This document shows positions 16,597 to 24,324 of a DNA stretch of 34,094 bases, piece after piece. Location: positions 1-34,094 of the forward strand of contig CAMCZE010000003.1 of NCBI GenBank assembly GCA_945885655.1, given 5' to 3'. Both the position numbers and the translations under genes were made by a program. Position 1 is the first letter of the stretch. Each line of letters begins with the position of its first letter. A model generated the notes under the pieces. That model saw nothing but the letters and a program-made list of their open reading frames with translations. It was not told where the DNA came from and made no database searches. This DNA comes from Bacteriovorax stolpii. Lineage in GTDB: Bacteria; Bdellovibrionota; Bacteriovoracia; Bacteriovoracales; Bacteriovoracaceae.

Positions 16597-17433
16597 TTAC
16601 CTATTAAGTATCTTCTTAAGTGAAGAGTAGAGGGTGGGATCCGCGGTTAAAATAGAAGAGCAAAACGCATGATAGGTACCACCTTGCATATCAGATATTT
16701 TGACTCCAGCTTCTTGACAGATAAGTCCTGCAGCTGCGACATCCCATGGTTTTAAATTATATTCCCAATAGGCATCCAACATTCCGGCCGCAACATAACT
16801 CATCTCAAGAGCAGCACTTCCAAATCTTCTCATGGCCCTGACTTCAGGAAAGCTTTTTAGTAAGTCTTTTTCTACTCGTTTACTTGAAAGATTGGCCGAC
16901 AGAAGAGCTTCTTTAAAAATCTTCTTTTTGCCATTCACCTTTAAACGAACTTTGACTTTTTTATCACCTATCAAGCGAACAAGGTAAGCACCCTTGCCTT
17001 TAACGGCATAAAAGAGCTCGCAGCTCACGGGATTATAAACCACACCCACCAGGGTCTCACTTCCCTTGTTCATGGCAAGGCTCACACAAAAGAAAGGAAC
17101 CTTATTAAAAAAATTATTTGTTCCATCCAAGGGATCGATTAACCAAAGATACTGATCATCTTTAACACCTAAAAGTTTTAGCTCTTTAGCAAAAGCATCT
17201 TCTTCAGAAAGAATGAAATGATCAGGGTAAGACTGCTTAATTTTTTTCATCACGTGGGCTTCTGAAAGGATATCCGCTTCAGTGGCAAGCCCTTGGCTAC
17301 CCTTATCTAAAATTTTGAGTGGAGTCTTATAGGACTTAATCAGATGAGAATTGAGAATGTCACCACACTCAAAAGCCCATTCAATCATTTGTTCTAAAAC
17401 TTTATTAAGGGATATGGTCTTCGTCTTTTTCAT
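16597..17433 (-). CDS. Inositol monophosphatase family protein (SuhB/CysQ-like)
   Basis: A 278-aa Mg-dependent phosphatase of the IMPase fold. Metal-binding motifs are present: ILSEEDAF, then LWLIDPLDGTNNFF, and the late KPWDVAAAGLICQEAG. Members dephosphorylate inositol-1-phosphate, fructose-1,6-bisphosphate, PAP or histidinol phosphate, and the substrate cannot be told from sequence alone. It overlaps the 3' end of yacG by 29 nt and belongs to a three-gene unit with yacG and the class IV aminotransferase-fold gene. The first 10 residues are Lys/Thr-rich and the ATG could be slightly further in. Confidence 0.9.
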   Translation of the reverse strand: MKKTKTISLNKVLEQMIEWAFECGDILNSHLIKSYKTPLKILDKGSQGLATEADILSEAHVMKKIKQSYPDHFILSEEDAFAKELKLLGVKDDQYLWLIDPLDGTNNFFNKVPFFCVSLAMNKGSETLVGVVYNPVSCELFYAVKGKGAYLVRLIGDKKVKVRLKVNGKKKIFKEALLSANLSSKRVEKDLLKSFPEVRAMRRFGSAALEMSYVAAGMLDAYWEYNLKPWDVAAAGLICQEAGVKISDMQGGTYHAFCSSILTADPTLYSSLKKILNR

Positions 17434-17620
17434 CTATCATTTGCTCTAAGGTTTGAACTTCTTCTTCCGTTATCTTCTCAACGGGTACAGTATAAGATTC
17501 ATTCAACCATTGCCCTAAGTCAATAAGCCGACACTTTTCACAACAAAAAGGACGAAACTCTGAAGAATAGTAGTTAAACTTTTTTTTACAACGAGGACAT
17601 GTAACTTCAAGATTTTTCAT
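17405..17620 (-). CDS. yacG: Zinc-ribbon protein YacG (DNA gyrase inhibitor family)
   Basis: A 71-aa zinc-binding protein matching the YacG/DUF329 pattern: CPRCKKKF, then RPFCCEKCRLIDLGQWLNES and YTVP. The four zinc ligands are CxxC and CxxxC. E. coli YacG binds GyrB and inhibits gyrase; whether this holds here is inferred. The start overlaps the upstream stop as ATGA. The acidic C-terminal tail overlaps the start of the IMPase gene. Confidence 0.9.
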   Translation of the reverse strand: MKNLEVTCPRCKKKFNYYSSEFRPFCCEKCRLIDLGQWLNESYTVPVEKITEEEVQTLEQMIDEKDEDHIP

Positions 17621-18417
17621 GGATAAACTGTGCTTATTAATTTTTTAAAGAGATTTAAAACATTTTGTTCTCGTTTTAACTCATGATCATCGACTCGATC
17701 AATTAAAAAAGGACCTCTAACACTATTAGACCCAAATATCATATCGGCTTTGTATACTTGGAGCAAAGTGGACTCAGTCTCAGTGACTTCTTCAAAAAAC
17801 TCTGAACTGGCCTCTAATATTTTTTTTCTCATCACGCCTTCAAGAACATGGGGACCCAAAGGTGCAGTATAAAGTTTTTTATTCCTAACAATAAAGATAT
17901 TGGCCACCGATGATTCTAGAACTGTATCCATACCTGATAAAAAAAGAAGATCATCATCTCCTTCTTTTAGGTACATCTTTTGTAACAAGATGTTTTCGAG
18001 GTAATTTCCAGACTTTAAAAAACTTGGCCACCAGTAAGGTCGACTCGGTGCCGGACATGTACGCAGCTTAAAACTTTGTTCACTAAATGTTAAAGGATCA
18101 ATCAAAGATGAATGCACATGAATCTTAAGATCAGAAACAGAGATGAGGCGGCCACGACTTAATCCCCTACTTCCTTCCAAATATACCGTGAGACGAATAA
18201 TCTTATTTCCACTCTCATTCTCAAGTCGTACTTCGATGAGATTTTTGAAAAGAATTGACCATTCCTGACTTTCATTAAAAGGTCCATAGAGATATTCTAT
18301 CCCACGTCTCAGTCGGTCAAAATGCTCATCCCAATCACAAAGAAGATTATCTTTCATCCTCATTGTTGTGAAAATCGATTCACCGTAGAGAAAAGCACGA
18401 TTTAGAGATTCAGTCAT
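17617..18417 (-). CDS. Class IV PLP-dependent enzyme (PabC/BCAT fold)
   Basis: A 266-aa fold-type IV PLP protein. The N-terminus has NRAFLYGESIFTTMRM and the HFDRL motif. The likely Schiff-base lysine is in LKSGNYLENILLQ. The PLP-phosphate and substrate loop follows (GMDTVLESSVANIFIV), then LYTAPLGPHVLEGVMR. The Asn in KSGNYLEN and the overall size resemble 4-amino-4-deoxychorismate lyase (PabC), but branched-chain and D-amino-acid transaminases share the fold. GGAG lies 9 nt before the ATG. It is first of a unit with yacG and the IMPase gene and is divergent from the pantothenate operon. Confidence 0.82.
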   Translation of the reverse strand: MTESLNRAFLYGESIFTTMRMKDNLLCDWDEHFDRLRRGIEYLYGPFNESQEWSILFKNLIEVRLENESGNKIIRLTVYLEGSRGLSRGRLISVSDLKIHVHSSLIDPLTFSEQSFKLRTCPAPSRPYWWPSFLKSGNYLENILLQKMYLKEGDDDLLFLSGMDTVLESSVANIFIVRNKKLYTAPLGPHVLEGVMRKKILEASSEFFEEVTETESTLLQVYKADMIFGSNSVRGPFLIDRVDDHELKREQNVLNLFKKLISTVYP

Positions 18418-18447
18418 ATTGGCCAGCTCCGAGTGATCATGATAGCG

Positions 18448-18480: not shown

Positions 18481-19410
18481 ATGCAGCTAACAATCATTGG
18501 CTTCGGCAATCAGGCTCGCGCCTGGGCACAAAACTTAAAAGATTCTGGCTTTCCCTTAAGAGTTGCTCTGAGGGCAGGCAGTTCATCATTTCAAAAAGCT
18601 CGAGAGATGGGTTTTGAAGTCGTTGAGATTGGGCATGCTGATTTTTATCAAGGGGAGGCTTTCGCTCTTTTAACTCCGGATGATTCCCACCATACTTTTT
18701 TAGAAGAGTTTGCAACAAAACTTAACCCACAAAGTATTATTCTATATGCTCACGGTTTTTCATTAGGAAAAGATGAGTTTGAAAAAACATATCCAAAACT
18801 CAGGCATATACTTTTTGCTCCTAAATCCATCGGGTCAGAACTTCGACGTCAATATGAGCTCAAAGGTAAATTGGGTGCCGTGTATTCATTAGAACATCTC
18901 AGTGATCACAAAAAAGAAGTTGAAGACTGGTTGTTTGAATTGGCCAGAAGTCTAGGCATTAACCTTGGGCCATATAAAACAAGTTTTAAAAAAGAGACAC
19001 AAGCCGATCTTTATTCAGAACAGGGGCTTCTTTGCTCCATCGTCCCCTATACCGCTGGGGAAATGTTCAAACATCTAGTGGAAGCGGGGGTGGAGCCAGA
19101 ACTTGCTTATTTTGAATGTTGGCACGAACTTAAACTCATTGTGAATGCGATGGTTGATAAAGGACCTGAGGGTTTTTATGACCTCATTAGTCCTAATGCT
19201 TTGATTGGTTCAGAAAAAGGTTTTAAAAGGCTTTTTAATGATGATTTTAAACAACGTTTAAAAAGTCTTCTTACTGAAATTCAAAATGGCTCCTTTGATC
19301 AAGAAATCGAAACAGTGGATATTCCTGAACTTCGTCATCGAATAAAATCTCGTTGGGCAGCCTCTCCATTAATGAAAACCTTTAATCAAATCAATGTGGA
19401 TAAAACATGA
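18481..19410 (+). CDS. IlvC-like (ketol-acid reductoisomerase family) protein, candidate ketopantoate reductase
   Basis: A 309-aa protein built like class I ketol-acid reductoisomerase. The NAD(P)-binding start is LTIIGFGNQARAWAQNLKDS. Residues equivalent to KARI active-site residues are kept: His91 in YAHGFS, Lys115 in APKSIG, Asp176 and Glu180 in DLYSEQ, Glu212 and Glu216 in FECWHELK, and Ser237 in LISPNA. Other normally fixed stretches differ: GSQGHAHA is GNQARAWA, APKAPG is APKSIG, and SNTAEYG is SPNALIG. It is the first gene of an operon with panB, coaX, coaBC and panC, with panB overlapping as ATGA. IlvC is known to reduce ketopantoate in some bacteria, so this may replace PanE. It could instead make the valine-pathway intermediate feeding PanB. 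The upstream track start at 18433 is rejected. Confidence 0.8.
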   Translation: MQLTIIGFGNQARAWAQNLKDSGFPLRVALRAGSSSFQKAREMGFEVVEIGHADFYQGEAFALLTPDDSHHTFLEEFATKLNPQSIILYAHGFSLGKDEFEKTYPKLRHILFAPKSIGSELRRQYELKGKLGAVYSLEHLSDHKKEVEDWLFELARSLGINLGPYKTSFKKETQADLYSEQGLLCSIVPYTAGEMFKHLVEAGVEPELAYFECWHELKLIVNAMVDKGPEGFYDLISPNALIGSEKGFKRLFNDDFKQRLKSLLTEIQNGSFDQEIETVDIPELRHRIKSRWAASPLMKTFNQINVDKT

Positions 19411-20168
19411 AAAAGCTTAATGTCCGTGACATCAGAAAAAGTAAAAATGGAAAACTTCAGGTTCTTACCTGTTATGATTTTCAAACTGCTTCCATGCTTA
19501 ATCAAACAACTCTGGATATGATCCTAGTGGGAGATAGCTTAGGTAACGTGATGCTGGGTTATGACACTACAGTTGAAGTCAGTCTAAAGGAAATGGAGAT
19601 TTTTTCTAAAGCCGTCCGCCGAGGTGCCCCAGATAAGTTTATGATTGTGGATCTGCCTTTTGGTAGTTATTCCACCATCTCTCAAGGCATTTTTTCTGCC
19701 ACAAAACTTTTTCAACAAACAAAAGCTGAGGCCGTAAAACTTGAAGGAGCCTTTCCCTATCAGTTAAAAATGATTGAACGCCTCACTCAAACAGGCATTC
19801 CTGTCATGGGACATATTGGTTTAGTTCCTCAGTCCGTGCATCAACTTGGTGGATATTATGTCCATGGAAAAAATTATGAATCAGCGAAACGAATTATGCA
19901 AGAAGCTAAAGCCTTGGAAGCGGCCGGCGTTTTTTCCGTCGTTTTAGAATGTGTGGAAGAAGGCCTTGCCACTCAAATCACTCAGGCCCTCTCTATTCCT
20001 ACTATCGGTATTGGTTCTGGGCGCAAAACTGACGGACAAGTTTTAGTGATCAATGATCTTTTAAAAATGGGGCCAAACACTCCTCCTAAGTTTTGCACCC
20101 CCATTGCAGATTTATTTCAGGTGAAAAATGACCTCATTAATCAATATTTAGAAGATCAGAGAAAGTAA
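19407..20168 (+). CDS. panB: 3-methyl-2-oxobutanoate hydroxymethyltransferase
   Basis: PanB adds a hydroxymethyl group from methylene-THF to 2-ketoisovalerate, giving ketopantoate. The 253-aa TIM-barrel protein shows the family blocks LTCYDFQTASML, MILVGDSLGNVMLGYDTTVE, VDLPFGSY, AVKLEGAF, GIPVMGHIGLVPQSVHQLGG and IPTIGIGSG. The catalytic Glu is in VLECV. The start overlaps the IlvC-like gene by 4 nt, and the next gene begins 1 nt after its stop. Confidence 0.97.
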   Translation: MKKLNVRDIRKSKNGKLQVLTCYDFQTASMLNQTTLDMILVGDSLGNVMLGYDTTVEVSLKEMEIFSKAVRRGAPDKFMIVDLPFGSYSTISQGIFSATKLFQQTKAEAVKLEGAFPYQLKMIERLTQTGIPVMGHIGLVPQSVHQLGGYYVHGKNYESAKRIMQEAKALEAAGVFSVVLECVEEGLATQITQALSIPTIGIGSGRKTDGQVLVINDLLKMGPNTPPKFCTPIADLFQVKNDLINQYLEDQRK

Positions 20169-20169
20169 G

Positions 20170-20913
20170 ATGCAGGGCCTTGTTACCATTGATTTCGGAA
20201 ACTCACACCCTCATGCAGGCATTTTCCAAAAGCTTGGTGGTCGTTGGTCACTGATTAAAGTTGTGCCTTTTAAAGAGTTACAACTTTTTTTAATTCAGCT
20301 TTTCATGAATCCAAGTAATACCTCCATCGTTTTATGTGATGTCAAACCTCGTGAGGAAGAAATTGAAGGATTAGTTGAACAGGGTTTTCTTATTACGAGA
20401 CTTAAACAGTACTGGAAAGGCCAACGTTTTGCGGGCATGCCTGTTCATTATGCTAATACTCTTGGTGAAGATAGATTAGTTGAAGCATTTTATTGTTATA
20501 AAAAAGATAAAACACCCACTCTTCTTATTGATGCTGGCACTTTTGTCACTATGGATGTGATAAATGCAGATGGATTCATGGGAGGATACATCATTCCAGG
20601 AACAGAAGCCTATTTTGAATCTTATTTAAAAGGTGAACAACTTAAAGATGTGGATCTTGTTCCATACTCAAATCAAAAACTCCCCCAAAAGACAGCTGAC
20701 GCCATGGCCGGAAGTTATCAGGCTTTTGCTGCGCTGGCTAAACAACTTATTCAGGAACACGATCTTAAAAAAGTTGTTTTAACTGGTGGAAAAGGAGCTT
20801 TTTGGGAAGTTTTTTTCACATTTAAGTCAGGAACGGTAGTTGTAGAGTCAGAGCCACATTTGATACACTTGGCCCTCCAATATTGGATGACAACACAGAT
20901 TGAACCGCTATGA
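20170..20913 (+). CDS. coaX: Type III pantothenate kinase
   Basis: CoaX phosphorylates pantothenate, the first step of CoA synthesis proper, and is unrelated to the CoaA type. The 247-aa ASKHA-fold protein has the phosphate-1 motif TIDFGNSHPHAGIF, the LGEDRLVEA motif with the catalytic Asp, the phosphate-2 motif LLIDAGTFVTMDVI, GGYIIPGTE, and the C-terminal VVLTGGKGAF. The dimer contact region looks normal, although sequence between motifs is divergent. It begins immediately after panB and overlaps coaBC by 4 nt. Confidence 0.9.
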   Translation: MQGLVTIDFGNSHPHAGIFQKLGGRWSLIKVVPFKELQLFLIQLFMNPSNTSIVLCDVKPREEEIEGLVEQGFLITRLKQYWKGQRFAGMPVHYANTLGEDRLVEAFYCYKKDKTPTLLIDAGTFVTMDVINADGFMGGYIIPGTEAYFESYLKGEQLKDVDLVPYSNQKLPQKTADAMAGSYQAFAALAKQLIQEHDLKKVVLTGGKGAFWEVFFTFKSGTVVVESEPHLIHLALQYWMTTQIEPL

Positions 20914-22142
20914 ATTACCTTCTTGCCGTTACCGGATCGATTGCTAGCTACAAAAGCTTTGATGTTGCACGCCAGTTAGTAAAAAATGGTCATCATGTAA
21001 AAGTGATTCTCACTTCCGGCGCACTGGAGTTTATCAAACCAGAAACTTTTCGTTACCTTGGAATCGAGGCCACTTATTTGCCTCAAGATGATTTTAAACC
21101 CGAACATCTCCAGTTAAAAGAAACCGTTCTACATATTGAACTGGCCAAGTGGGCCGATAAATTAATTATCGCTCCTTTAAGTGCGAACACCCTTAACCGC
21201 CTGGCACTTGGTTTAAATAATGATCTTCTAGGAAGTGTCTTTCTAGCTTTTGCACAAAAACCCATTCTCCTTTTTCCTGCCATGAACACGCACATGTGGG
21301 ACAACGCCAGGGTGCAAGAACATGTAGAAAAACTTAAACAACAATTTCGAATTGGATTCATCAATCCTGTTTCAGGACTACTTGCGTGCGGAGACATCGG
21401 CTCAGGAAAATTTCCTGACGTGAGTGCAGTAGTAGACCTCATTGAAACCTTTGAGCCCCTCAAAAAAATGGCAAAAAAAGTTATCATCACCGCTGGTGCT
21501 ACGGCTGCACCTTTGGATCCTGTCCGATATATGACTAATCCATCCAGCGGAAAAATGGGTATGGCCATTGCTGGTTCTTTTTTAAAGGCCGGTTATGATG
21601 TCACCGTTCTTGCTGGCCATCAGTGTTTGCCAGAGATTGAAAACTTTAAAGGTCATCCTCATTTTAAATTGGAAAAAACTGCCACGACCGAACTCATAAA
21701 ACAAGCGGCCATGCGTTTATTTCCTGAAGCTGATTTGTATATCTCCACTGGTGCCATTGCCGACATTGAATTTGATGCTGTTCATACAAAGATAAAAAAA
21801 GAGGCCATGGGCCAGAGCCTTCCTTTTCATCAAGCGGCCGACATCTTAAAGGAAATTTTAAAGCTTCAAAAACCACATCAAAAAGTTGTGAGTTTTGCCG
21901 CTGAAACTGAGACCACGTCAGAAGTTTTCACAGAAAAGATGAATCGTAAACCCGTGGATCTGATGATTGGAAATAAAGTCGCCAATGGACTTATTGGCCA
22001 AGCTCAAGTTGAAGGTTTTCAAAGTCATGATGGCCAATACTTTGTTGTTCAAAAAAATTCCATAAAGGGTCCCATCAGTTTAACAAAAAAAGCGTTAGGT
22101 CTTAAACTTGTTGAATGGTTTGAAGGACAACCTTCATGGTAA
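20910..22142 (+). CDS. coaBC: Bifunctional phosphopantothenoylcysteine decarboxylase / phosphopantothenate-cysteine ligase
   Basis: CoaBC first joins cysteine to 4'-phosphopantothenate (CoaB) and then decarboxylates the product (CoaC). The N-terminal FMN-dependent CoaC domain has VTGSIASYKSFDVARQL, the catalytic His in VLHIELAKWAD, PLSANTLNRLALG, PAMNTHMWDN, and the substrate-clamp motif LLACGDIGSGKFPD. The CoaB domain starts near residue 190 with VIITAGATAAPLDPVRYM and NPSSGKMG. The 410-aa length is usual. It overlaps coaX by 4 nt and panC by 7 nt. Confidence 0.97.
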   Translation: MNYLLAVTGSIASYKSFDVARQLVKNGHHVKVILTSGALEFIKPETFRYLGIEATYLPQDDFKPEHLQLKETVLHIELAKWADKLIIAPLSANTLNRLALGLNNDLLGSVFLAFAQKPILLFPAMNTHMWDNARVQEHVEKLKQQFRIGFINPVSGLLACGDIGSGKFPDVSAVVDLIETFEPLKKMAKKVIITAGATAAPLDPVRYMTNPSSGKMGMAIAGSFLKAGYDVTVLAGHQCLPEIENFKGHPHFKLEKTATTELIKQAAMRLFPEADLYISTGAIADIEFDAVHTKIKKEAMGQSLPFHQAADILKEILKLQKPHQKVVSFAAETETTSEVFTEKMNRKPVDLMIGNKVANGLIGQAQVEGFQSHDGQYFVVQKNSIKGPISLTKKALGLKLVEWFEGQPSW

Positions 22143-22993
22143 AATTGATAACATCGACACAAGAGTTACTAAAGACAAGATCAGCTGAAACAGAAGTGAT
22201 CGGTTTTGTGCCCACCATGGGCAATCTCCACGCTGGCCATATCTCACTACTAGAAGCTGCCCTAAAAGATTTTGATCATGTTTATTTTTCGATCTTTGTG
22301 AATCCCACTCAGTTTGGCCCAAATGAAGATTTTAACCAATACCCAAGAACTTTAGAAAAAGATCTCAAACTTATTGAAGACTTATTAATAAATTATCCTG
22401 GCAAAGAGGTCGTGGTTTATTCCCCTAAACATCCGCAGGAAGTTTATACTGATGATATTAAAAATCGAGTGATTAGTGTAAAAGGCCTTAAAGACATTAT
22501 TGAAGGTGCGATTCGACCTGGACATTTTGACGGTGTGGCCACTGTGGTCTTCAGACTTTTTGAGCTGGTGAAACCTTACAAAACCTATTTTGGACTTAAA
22601 GACTATCAACAGTTTTTAGTCATCAAAAGAATGATTCAGGATTTAAATCTACCCATAATGATTCAAGGTATGCCTATCATTCGTGAACCTACCGGCCTTG
22701 CTTTATCAAGCCGCAATCAGTACCTTAGCCCCCAACAAAAAGAAAAGTCGCTGCTCCTTAATTATGGGCTTAAACAAATTGAAGATACTTTAGCGGGAGA
22801 TAAACTAAATATTCCCGTTGCAAGAGAGCTTATCACGAAATTAAAAAATGATTGCAACTGGAACTACCTTGAACTTAGAGATGCTGACACCCTAGATGAA
22901 GATCTTTCATCATCTTCAAAAGTCACTATACTCGGCGTTTACCAATTAGGGACGACACGTCTTTTGGATAACCGTCAAATGGAACTTAAATGA
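22136..22993 (+). CDS. panC: Pantothenate synthetase (pantoate-beta-alanine ligase)
   Basis: PanC condenses pantoate and beta-alanine through a pantoyl-adenylate. The 285-aa protein has the adenylate-forming HIGH-type motif in PTMGNLHAGHISLL. It also has FVNPTQFGPNEDFNQYPRTL, the pantoate site YFGLKDYQQFLVIKRM, and the KMSKS-equivalent GLALSSRNQYLSP. The start overlaps the coaBC end by 7 nt and hflX overlaps its end by 4 nt. Beta-alanine must come from elsewhere, as no panD is present here. Confidence 0.96.
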   Translation: MVKLITSTQELLKTRSAETEVIGFVPTMGNLHAGHISLLEAALKDFDHVYFSIFVNPTQFGPNEDFNQYPRTLEKDLKLIEDLLINYPGKEVVVYSPKHPQEVYTDDIKNRVISVKGLKDIIEGAIRPGHFDGVATVVFRLFELVKPYKTYFGLKDYQQFLVIKRMIQDLNLPIMIQGMPIIREPTGLALSSRNQYLSPQQKEKSLLLNYGLKQIEDTLAGDKLNIPVARELITKLKNDCNWNYLELRDADTLDEDLSSSSKVTILGVYQLGTTRLLDNRQMELK

Positions 22994-24324
22994 ATCATGA
23001 TGATTACAAATTACCTCTTGGACAAAAAGCTTCATTGGTCTCCATGGTGTGTGATAAGTTTGAAAGTCACTCCACTGCTATTGAAACCAATACCTCATTA
23101 AAAGAACTCAGAGAGTTACTTCGCACCCTAGGGATAGTCGGAGGTGAAGAATACGTTCAAAATAAAAAACAAATTGATTCTGCCACGATGTTAGGGGCCG
23201 GAAAGCTGGAAGAGATCGCCGATGATGCCCGTGCTGAAGGTTCAAGCCTTTTGGTTTTTGATTTTGAACTCACAGCTTCTCAGATCAGAAATATTAAAGA
23301 GATCACTAAACTTGAAGTTGTCGATAGAAATACAGTCATTCTTGAGATTTTCGCTCATCACGCTAGAACCAAAGAGGCGAAGATTCAAATCGAAATCTCC
23401 CGGCTTCAATACCTTCTACCACGCCTCACATCCATGTGGGGTCACTTTTCGAAACAACGTGGCGGTGGTATGGCCGTTGGTGGTGAAGGTGAGCAACAAC
23501 TTGAGCTTGATAGACGGATGGTGCGTGAGCGTATAGAGCACTATAAAAAGCAACTGGAAGAAGTTCAAAAGTCTCGTGAGCAACAAAGAAAAAAAAGACA
23601 AAACCAGGCAGTAACTGCGGCGTTGGTGGGTTATACTAACGCCGGTAAATCATCTTTAATGAACCGTTTATGTAAAGTGAACGTTCTAGAAGAAAACAAA
23701 CTTTTTGCGACCCTTGACTCTACCTTCAGAACACTTAACCCTGATTCAAAACCACCCATGATCATGATTGATACAGTGGGGTTCATTTCTAATTTACCTA
23801 ATACACTCATCCAGGGTTTTAAAACCACACTTGAATCGGCCCTGGAAGCTGATCTACTTCTGGTTGTCTGTGACATCTCCGACCCTAACTATCAAAAGCA
23901 TCTTAAAGTCACACAAGAAGTTCTTAAAGAACTTAAGATTGAAGACAAACAACAGATCATTGTATTCAACAAAAAGGATCTACTCAATGATCCGGTACGT
24001 GCTCGTATCATCATGAGAAATTATCCAAACTCATTTTTAGTCTCTTCCTACAATGAAGAAGATATGAGTAATCTTAGAAATTTTGTCATCAATTATTTTC
24101 TTGCGAAACAAGATCACTATGATCTTTTTGTTCCTTATGAAATGGGTGAAGCCCATTCTAGAATTCGTGCCAACGCAAATATCCTAAATAATATTTCACA
24201 TGAGCAAGGAATTTTTTACCGAATTCGTATACCTGACTTTATTTTTCAACAGTTAGGATTAAATGCATTTATCCTTGGTCCTACGGAAGCAAAAGAGTGG
24301 GAAGAAATAAAAAATTCACTTTAA
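22990..24324 (+). CDS. hflX: Ribosome-associated GTPase HflX
   Basis: HflX binds the 50S subunit and rescues or splits stalled ribosomes. The 444-aa protein has the N-terminal HflX domain (DSATMLGAGKLEEIADDARA, LEVVDRNTVILEIFAHHART) and a helical linker with SKQRGGGMAVGGEGEQQLEL. The GTPase domain shows G1 in VGYTNAGKSSLMNRL, G2/DSTFRT, G3 in IDTVGFISNLP and G4 in VFNKKDLL. It is last in the pantothenate/CoA operon, overlapping panC as ATGA. Its link to CoA synthesis is probably only transcriptional. Confidence 0.96.
   Translation: MNHDDYKLPLGQKASLVSMVCDKFESHSTAIETNTSLKELRELLRTLGIVGGEEYVQNKKQIDSATMLGAGKLEEIADDARAEGSSLLVFDFELTASQIRNIKEITKLEVVDRNTVILEIFAHHARTKEAKIQIEISRLQYLLPRLTSMWGHFSKQRGGGMAVGGEGEQQLELDRRMVRERIEHYKKQLEEVQKSREQQRKKRQNQAVTAALVGYTNAGKSSLMNRLCKVNVLEENKLFATLDSTFRTLNPDSKPPMIMIDTVGFISNLPNTLIQGFKTTLESALEADLLLVVCDISDPNYQKHLKVTQEVLKELKIEDKQQIIVFNKKDLLNDPVRARIIMRNYPNSFLVSSYNEEDMSNLRNFVINYFLAKQDHYDLFVPYEMGEAHSRIRANANILNNISHEQGIFYRIRIPDFIFQQLGLNAFILGPTEAKEWEEIKNSL

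Follow-up and report, generated by a model that had tools for sequence, protein, structure and literature searches.

Several enzymes are known or reported to reduce ketopantoate to pantoate. Besides PanE/ApbA, they include PanG (DUF2520, FTT1388), which is reported to catalyse this step in Francisella (PMC4572677); in another bacterium the gene numbering puts a DUF2520 member right in front of panB-panC-panD (PMC9705837). Reports from C. glutamicum, Buchnera, E. coli and B. subtilis also credit IlvC, the ketol-acid reductoisomerase (KARI), with this activity (PMC4306246, PMC11487621). That IlvC can reduce ketopantoate has long been known, and the reaction itself is not new. In C. glutamicum, Buchnera and B. 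subtilis the KARI protein acts where PanE is absent or redundant, and a single IlvC serves branched-chain amino acid synthesis as well. KARI paralogues can also take on other roles, as in BurG, a refunctionalised KARI whose Tyr133 interacts with the substrate (PMC9359912). Here we analyse a divergent KARI-family (IlvC-like) gene in a stretch of 34,094 nucleotides from Bacteriovorax stolpii (contig CAMCZE010000003.1), referred to as the window. The gene heads a pantothenate and coenzyme A (CoA) operon, and on comparative grounds it almost certainly fills the one step missing from that operon, the reduction of ketopantoate.

The source genome is a metagenome-assembled genome of 2.9 Mb, 84.7% complete. 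The operon consists of the following genes, successive members of which overlap or lie 1 bp apart:

18481..19410, + strand: KARI-family (IlvC-like) protein of 309 residues, proposed ketopantoate reductase (KARI_N/KARI_C, below the IlvC equivalogs; residue census; AlphaFold2 model)
19407..20168, + strand: panB, ketopantoate hydroxymethyltransferase (TIGR00222, 270 bits)
20170..20913, + strand: coaX, type III pantothenate kinase (PF03309, 83 bits; TIGR00671, 65.8 bits, over cut-off)
20910..22142, + strand: coaBC, phosphopantothenoylcysteine synthetase/decarboxylase (TIGR00521, 311 bits)
22136..22993, + strand: panC, pantoate-beta-alanine ligase (TIGR00018, 275 bits)

An earlier reading of the letters and open reading frames (ORFs), made without database searches and here called the sequence-only reading, had described an IlvC-family gene of 309 residues coupled to panB by an ATGA overlap and followed by coaX, coaBC and panC. 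The ORF, the Pfam matches and direct inspection of the junction (...ACATGAAAAAG...), where the panB ATG at 19407 overlaps the IlvC-like stop ending at 19410, all agree with this description, and the other four identities each exceed a Pfam or NCBIfam cut-off. The IlvC-like ORF begins with ATG at 18481; an alternative in-frame GTG start at 18433 would give a product of 325 residues.

The protein belongs to the KARI superfamily, with both domains of the KARI pair (PF07991 and PF01450) well over their cut-offs: KARI_N scores 90.6 bits and KARI_C 101.2 bits, against cut-offs of 20.6 and 29.1, respectively. It falls below all of the NCBIfam IlvC equivalog cut-offs, scoring 186.4 against 226.15 for TIGR00465 and 198.3 against 336 for NF004017, and it neither co-occurs with IlvD nor groups with the KARIs of ilv operons. 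TIGR00745 (PanE/ApbA) is absent from its NCBIfam matches.

Profile searches found a single KARI in the source genome. They found no IlvD there or in its genus, no PanG (DUF2520) in the genome, and no full match to PanE, the only hits being two short stretches of Rossmann motif within large frames. The genus mates show the same pattern of a single KARI without IlvD or PanE. The sequence-only reading had noted that the operon lacks panE and had proposed a genome-wide search for panE, panG and a canonical ilvC; neither panE nor panG nor a second ilvC was found. It had also pointed to the lack of a beta-alanine supply in the operon, and PanD (aspartate decarboxylase) was indeed found neither in this genome nor in its genus (g1), being present in 55 of the 116 genomes of the family survey.

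That survey covered 116 genomes of the order, all of one family (Bacteriovoracaceae) and representing 46 genera. Divergent pan-type KARIs (45–104 bits) occur in 97 of them and panB in 107. Stronger KARIs (170–252 bits) are present in five (G077, G081, G083, G094 and G111) and IlvD in only three (G081, G083 and G111). In these three, a canonical ilvC lies together with ilvB and other ilv/leu genes, and G083 has a pan-type copy in addition. Full-length PanE-family proteins were found in five genomes, four of them over cut-off, and none of the five loci (L059–L063) has pan genes in its vicinity.

This distribution bears on the alternative offered by the sequence-only reading, namely a true valine-pathway KARI that feeds PanB with pathway product, which would then adjoin panB by happenstance. 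Such a role would suit the conserved fold and catalytic residues described below, and ketoisovalerate is indeed the substrate of PanB. However, the product of KARI, dihydroxyisovalerate, requires IlvD for its conversion to ketoisovalerate, and IlvD is absent from the source genome, from 113 of the 116 family genomes, and from 39 of the 40 KARI-bearing genomes found elsewhere in the phylum. Moreover, the genomes with full ilv operons own a canonical ilvC. The lack of IlvD thus contradicts this alternative, which is very improbable and comes close to being refuted.

The position of the gene is highly conserved. The pan-type KARI lies directly before panB in 94 of the 97 genomes that carry it, and the adjacency is therefore not a matter of chance. 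A gene-order scan of the neighbourhoods of 96 relatives, many of them cut by contig or region ends, finds it next to panB, upstream and co-oriented, in 93. The two genes overlap in 65 of the 96, by exactly 4 bases in 41. The full order KARI-panB-coaX-coaBC-panC is seen in 71 of these stretches, and in some of the others the coaBC-panC part lies beyond the stretch.

In some genomes another reductase family occupies the same slot, an exchange that the sequence-only reading had not anticipated. Among the 107 genomes with panB, 97 have a pan-type KARI, nine have PanG, one has neither and none has both; the nine family genomes without panB have neither protein. DUF2520 is limited to these nine PanG genomes, and in all nine it stands immediately before panB, with panC, coaB/coaC and coaX behind. 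One genus (g5) includes a species with PanG and panB, another with KARI and panB, and a third without any of them. Fisher tests give p = 1e-8 for the association of KARI with panB and p = 3e-12 for KARI against PanG among the panB genomes, both values being inflated by the relatedness of the genomes. Co-occurrence with panB and exclusion of PanG are what a ketopantoate reductase would be expected to show, and we consider the exchange of KARI and PanG in one slot the strongest single argument for this function. PanG would thus share with the IlvC-like protein both the proposed step and the place before panB in Bacteriovoracaceae; it differs in belonging to another protein family and in never occurring together with a pan-type KARI. 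PanE/ApbA would likewise share the reaction, again from another family.

The AlphaFold2 model of the IlvC-like protein is confident (pLDDT 97.1), and its best PDB matches are all class I KARIs (TM 0.77–0.88). The sequence-only reading had listed D176, E180, E212, E216 and K115 as retained metal and catalytic residues; all are present, together with H91 and S237. The residues H107, K130, D190, E194, E226, E230 and S251 (S. aureus KARI numbering, used throughout the comparison) are near-invariant over 97 homologues, R48 is kept, and the Ser of the NADPH loop is usually kept. The protein therefore resembles class I KARI (IlvC) in fold, NADPH loop, two-metal site and catalytic His, Lys and Ser, while differing in that its gene lies in a pan/coa operon of an organism without IlvD.

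These residues also bear on the idea that the protein is an accessory or regulatory member of the pan operon and that some undetected enzyme reduces ketopantoate. One genome (G105) with panB and no detected reductase could be read in that way, but the catalytic and cofactor residues vary little or not at all among 97 sequences with identities down to 34%, and the slot is taken elsewhere by PanG, a proven reductase family. We consider an accessory role hardly credible.

The changes relative to class I KARI are in other positions. Pro132 is found in 15 of 15 ilv KARIs, while 47 of 48 pan-clade rows have Ile or Val here and the remaining one has Thr; in the window protein the residue is I117. Near-uniform changes in the pan clade are Thr189 to Ala/Gly/Ser, Gly193 to Ser/Thr and Glu255 to Leu or others. 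The window protein, which shares 23–30% identity with the KARIs detected in its order, has Pro132 to Ile, Thr189 to Ala, Gly193 to Ser, Thr253 to Asn and Glu255 to Leu. By alignment, the Pro132 position corresponds to Tyr133 of BurG. BurG is thus comparable as a KARI paralogue in a new role with this position changed, although it is an NAD+-dependent cyclopropanol synthase of secondary metabolism, with another reaction and another gene context. The pattern fits a conserved chemistry with a re-tuned substrate pocket.

A further possibility is that the protein is a generalist, reducing ketopantoate while retaining another KARI-type role, on other 2-keto acids or on acetolactate from the prey. 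This disputes only the word dedicated and overlaps with the reading proposed here. KARIs are promiscuous (PMC4353338) and both metal sites are kept. On the other hand, none of the nine genomes without panB keeps the gene, and from this strict co-occurrence it would be pantothenate synthesis that maintains it. A generalist is unlikely, if clearly less so than the two alternatives above. As to acetolactate activity itself, we lean towards its complete loss.

In the main tree (maximum likelihood, 61 sequences, LG+C20+F+G4, PMSF) a branch with 100/97 support separates all pan-clade KARIs, among them those from other families of Bdellovibrionota, from the KARIs of ilv operons and the orphan KARIs not linked to pan genes. 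The split was found in all 200 bootstrap trees checked, and a quick tree of 89 rows gave the same pan group with support 98. The pan-linked members thus branch apart, as the sequence-only reading had suggested checking. Long inner branches on the pan side make it less certain that the Bacteriovoracaceae and the other pan-linked groups arose together than that they are distinct from the ilv KARIs.

In the phylum survey (241 genomes), the 40 KARI-bearing genomes outside the order have panB over cut-off in 35 cases, and IlvD and PanE over cut-off in one each. The same KARI-panB order was seen at 12 loci in other families of the phylum (L274, L277, L282, L298, L303, L305, L306, L307, L309, L310, L311 and L313); the orphan KARI of families f3, f4 and f9 does not adjoin panB. 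Genomes that combine an orphan KARI with panB are common in Bdellovibrionota as a whole.

Unlinked orphan KARIs in other families (for example L278, L284, L288, L291 and L301; genomes G117–G181) occur in hosts that mostly have panB and lack IlvD and PanE. At the Pro132 position 18 of 25 have Ala, and in some a metal ligand has been replaced (D190N, E230G/K). The neighbours checked (uvrB, mlaC, yceD, Fic) give no functional hint.

In G077 and G094 the strong KARI was considered as canonical IlvC, rejected as such and treated separately, since it lies in a sugar/2-hydroxyacid-dehydrogenase cluster and its catalytic Lys130 is replaced by Arg. These two proteins represent a third KARI-type paralogue (L057:7261-8337 and L058:7598-8608, respectively), whose gene in both cases comes right after one for a D-2-hydroxyacid dehydrogenase within a sugar/polysaccharide-like cluster. 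Their APRMPG motif resembles the APRMYG of BurG, and they too may be refunctionalised KARIs.

Some observations weigh against a dedicated ketopantoate reductase. The genome is incomplete, so that each absence leans partly on relatives. The pan-type KARI is unlinked to panB in three genomes (G077, G082 and G107), and in three others (G005, G102 and G114) it accompanies a full PanE-family protein. G105, which is 75% complete, has panB with no pan-type KARI, PanG or PanE found. Finally, the two conserved metal sites leave room for some residual isomeroreductase activity. The panB locus of G105 (L163) reads panB-coaBC-panC-hflX, without a KARI-like gene and without coaX.

On the basis of these observations, we propose that the physiological role of the IlvC-like protein is ketopantoate reduction, with a probability of about 0.92. 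The proposal of the sequence-only reading, a divergent paralogue serving as a dedicated ketopantoate reductase, is strongly supported by the lack of PanE, PanG, IlvD and a second ilvC, by the separate branch and by the exchange with PanG. The enzyme would be NADPH- and Mg-dependent and descended from KARI. Valine from the prey would be deaminated to ketoisovalerate, to which PanB would add a hydroxymethyl group; the KARI-like protein would reduce the resulting ketopantoate to pantoate, and PanC, CoaX and CoaBC would carry pantoate on to phosphopantetheine. The roles of the last three up to this point are established for their families. Ketopantoate reduction would correspond to the reductive step that forms the second half of KARI catalysis, and the isomerase half would be dispensable because the organism has no valine pathway.

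Three neighbouring genes complete the conserved locus:

22990..24324, + strand: HflX-like GTPase gene, overlapping panC (name from reading the sequence; gene-order scan)
17617..18417, - strand: class IV aminotransferase (PabC/IlvE-like), no equivalog cut-off reached (PF01063, 117.6 bits; NCBIfam; gene order)
16597..17433, - strand: inositol monophosphatase-family gene adjoining the aminotransferase, neighbourhood conserved (PF00459, 174 bits; gene order)

The HflX-like gene follows panC in at least 62 of the 96 relative loci, many of the others being cut by contig or region ends; it is probably co-transcribed with the pan operon and is probably not a pathway enzyme. The class IV aminotransferase is head-to-head with the IlvC-like gene in 87 of the 96. 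It was considered as a source of ketoisovalerate and may be one, but PabC fits at least equally well (PabC 100.7 bits, ilvE_I 60.5 bits, neither of which reaches cut-off). Most genus mates have a second class IV aminotransferase of about 362 residues. In G105 the class IV aminotransferase (L163:6136-7140) is fused to a YacG-like domain.

A search of open-access papers on Bdellovibrio or Halobacteriovorax with ilvC or pantothenate turned up nothing about the IlvC-like gene, and as far as we could find in the open-access literature a dedicated, operon-anchored KARI lineage in valine-auxotrophic predators has not been described. It differs from the IlvC of C. glutamicum, Buchnera and B. subtilis in being a separate lineage in organisms with no valine pathway. 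More broadly, we think it fairly probable that the gene represents a third ketopantoate reductase family beside PanE and PanG, which would have arisen from KARI in Bdellovibrionota after loss of the valine pathway, re-tuning its pocket (Pro132 to Ile/Val) and abandoning the isomeroreductase reaction on acetolactate; the unlinked orphans, with Pro132 mostly changed to Ala, would be a parallel route.

A metabolic model of B. bacteriovorus requires both valine and pantothenate to be supplied (PMC7529429). The function proposed here would close the missing step of vitamin B5 and CoA synthesis in a large group of predators that are apparently valine-auxotrophic yet pantothenate-independent. It would provide a natural case in which a promiscuous side activity became the main job of an enzyme after its original pathway was lost, with PanG as a natural replacement control. 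Automatic annotation would call such genes valine-synthesis enzymes or leave them unnamed, and an orphan KARI gene is by itself no evidence of valine synthesis.

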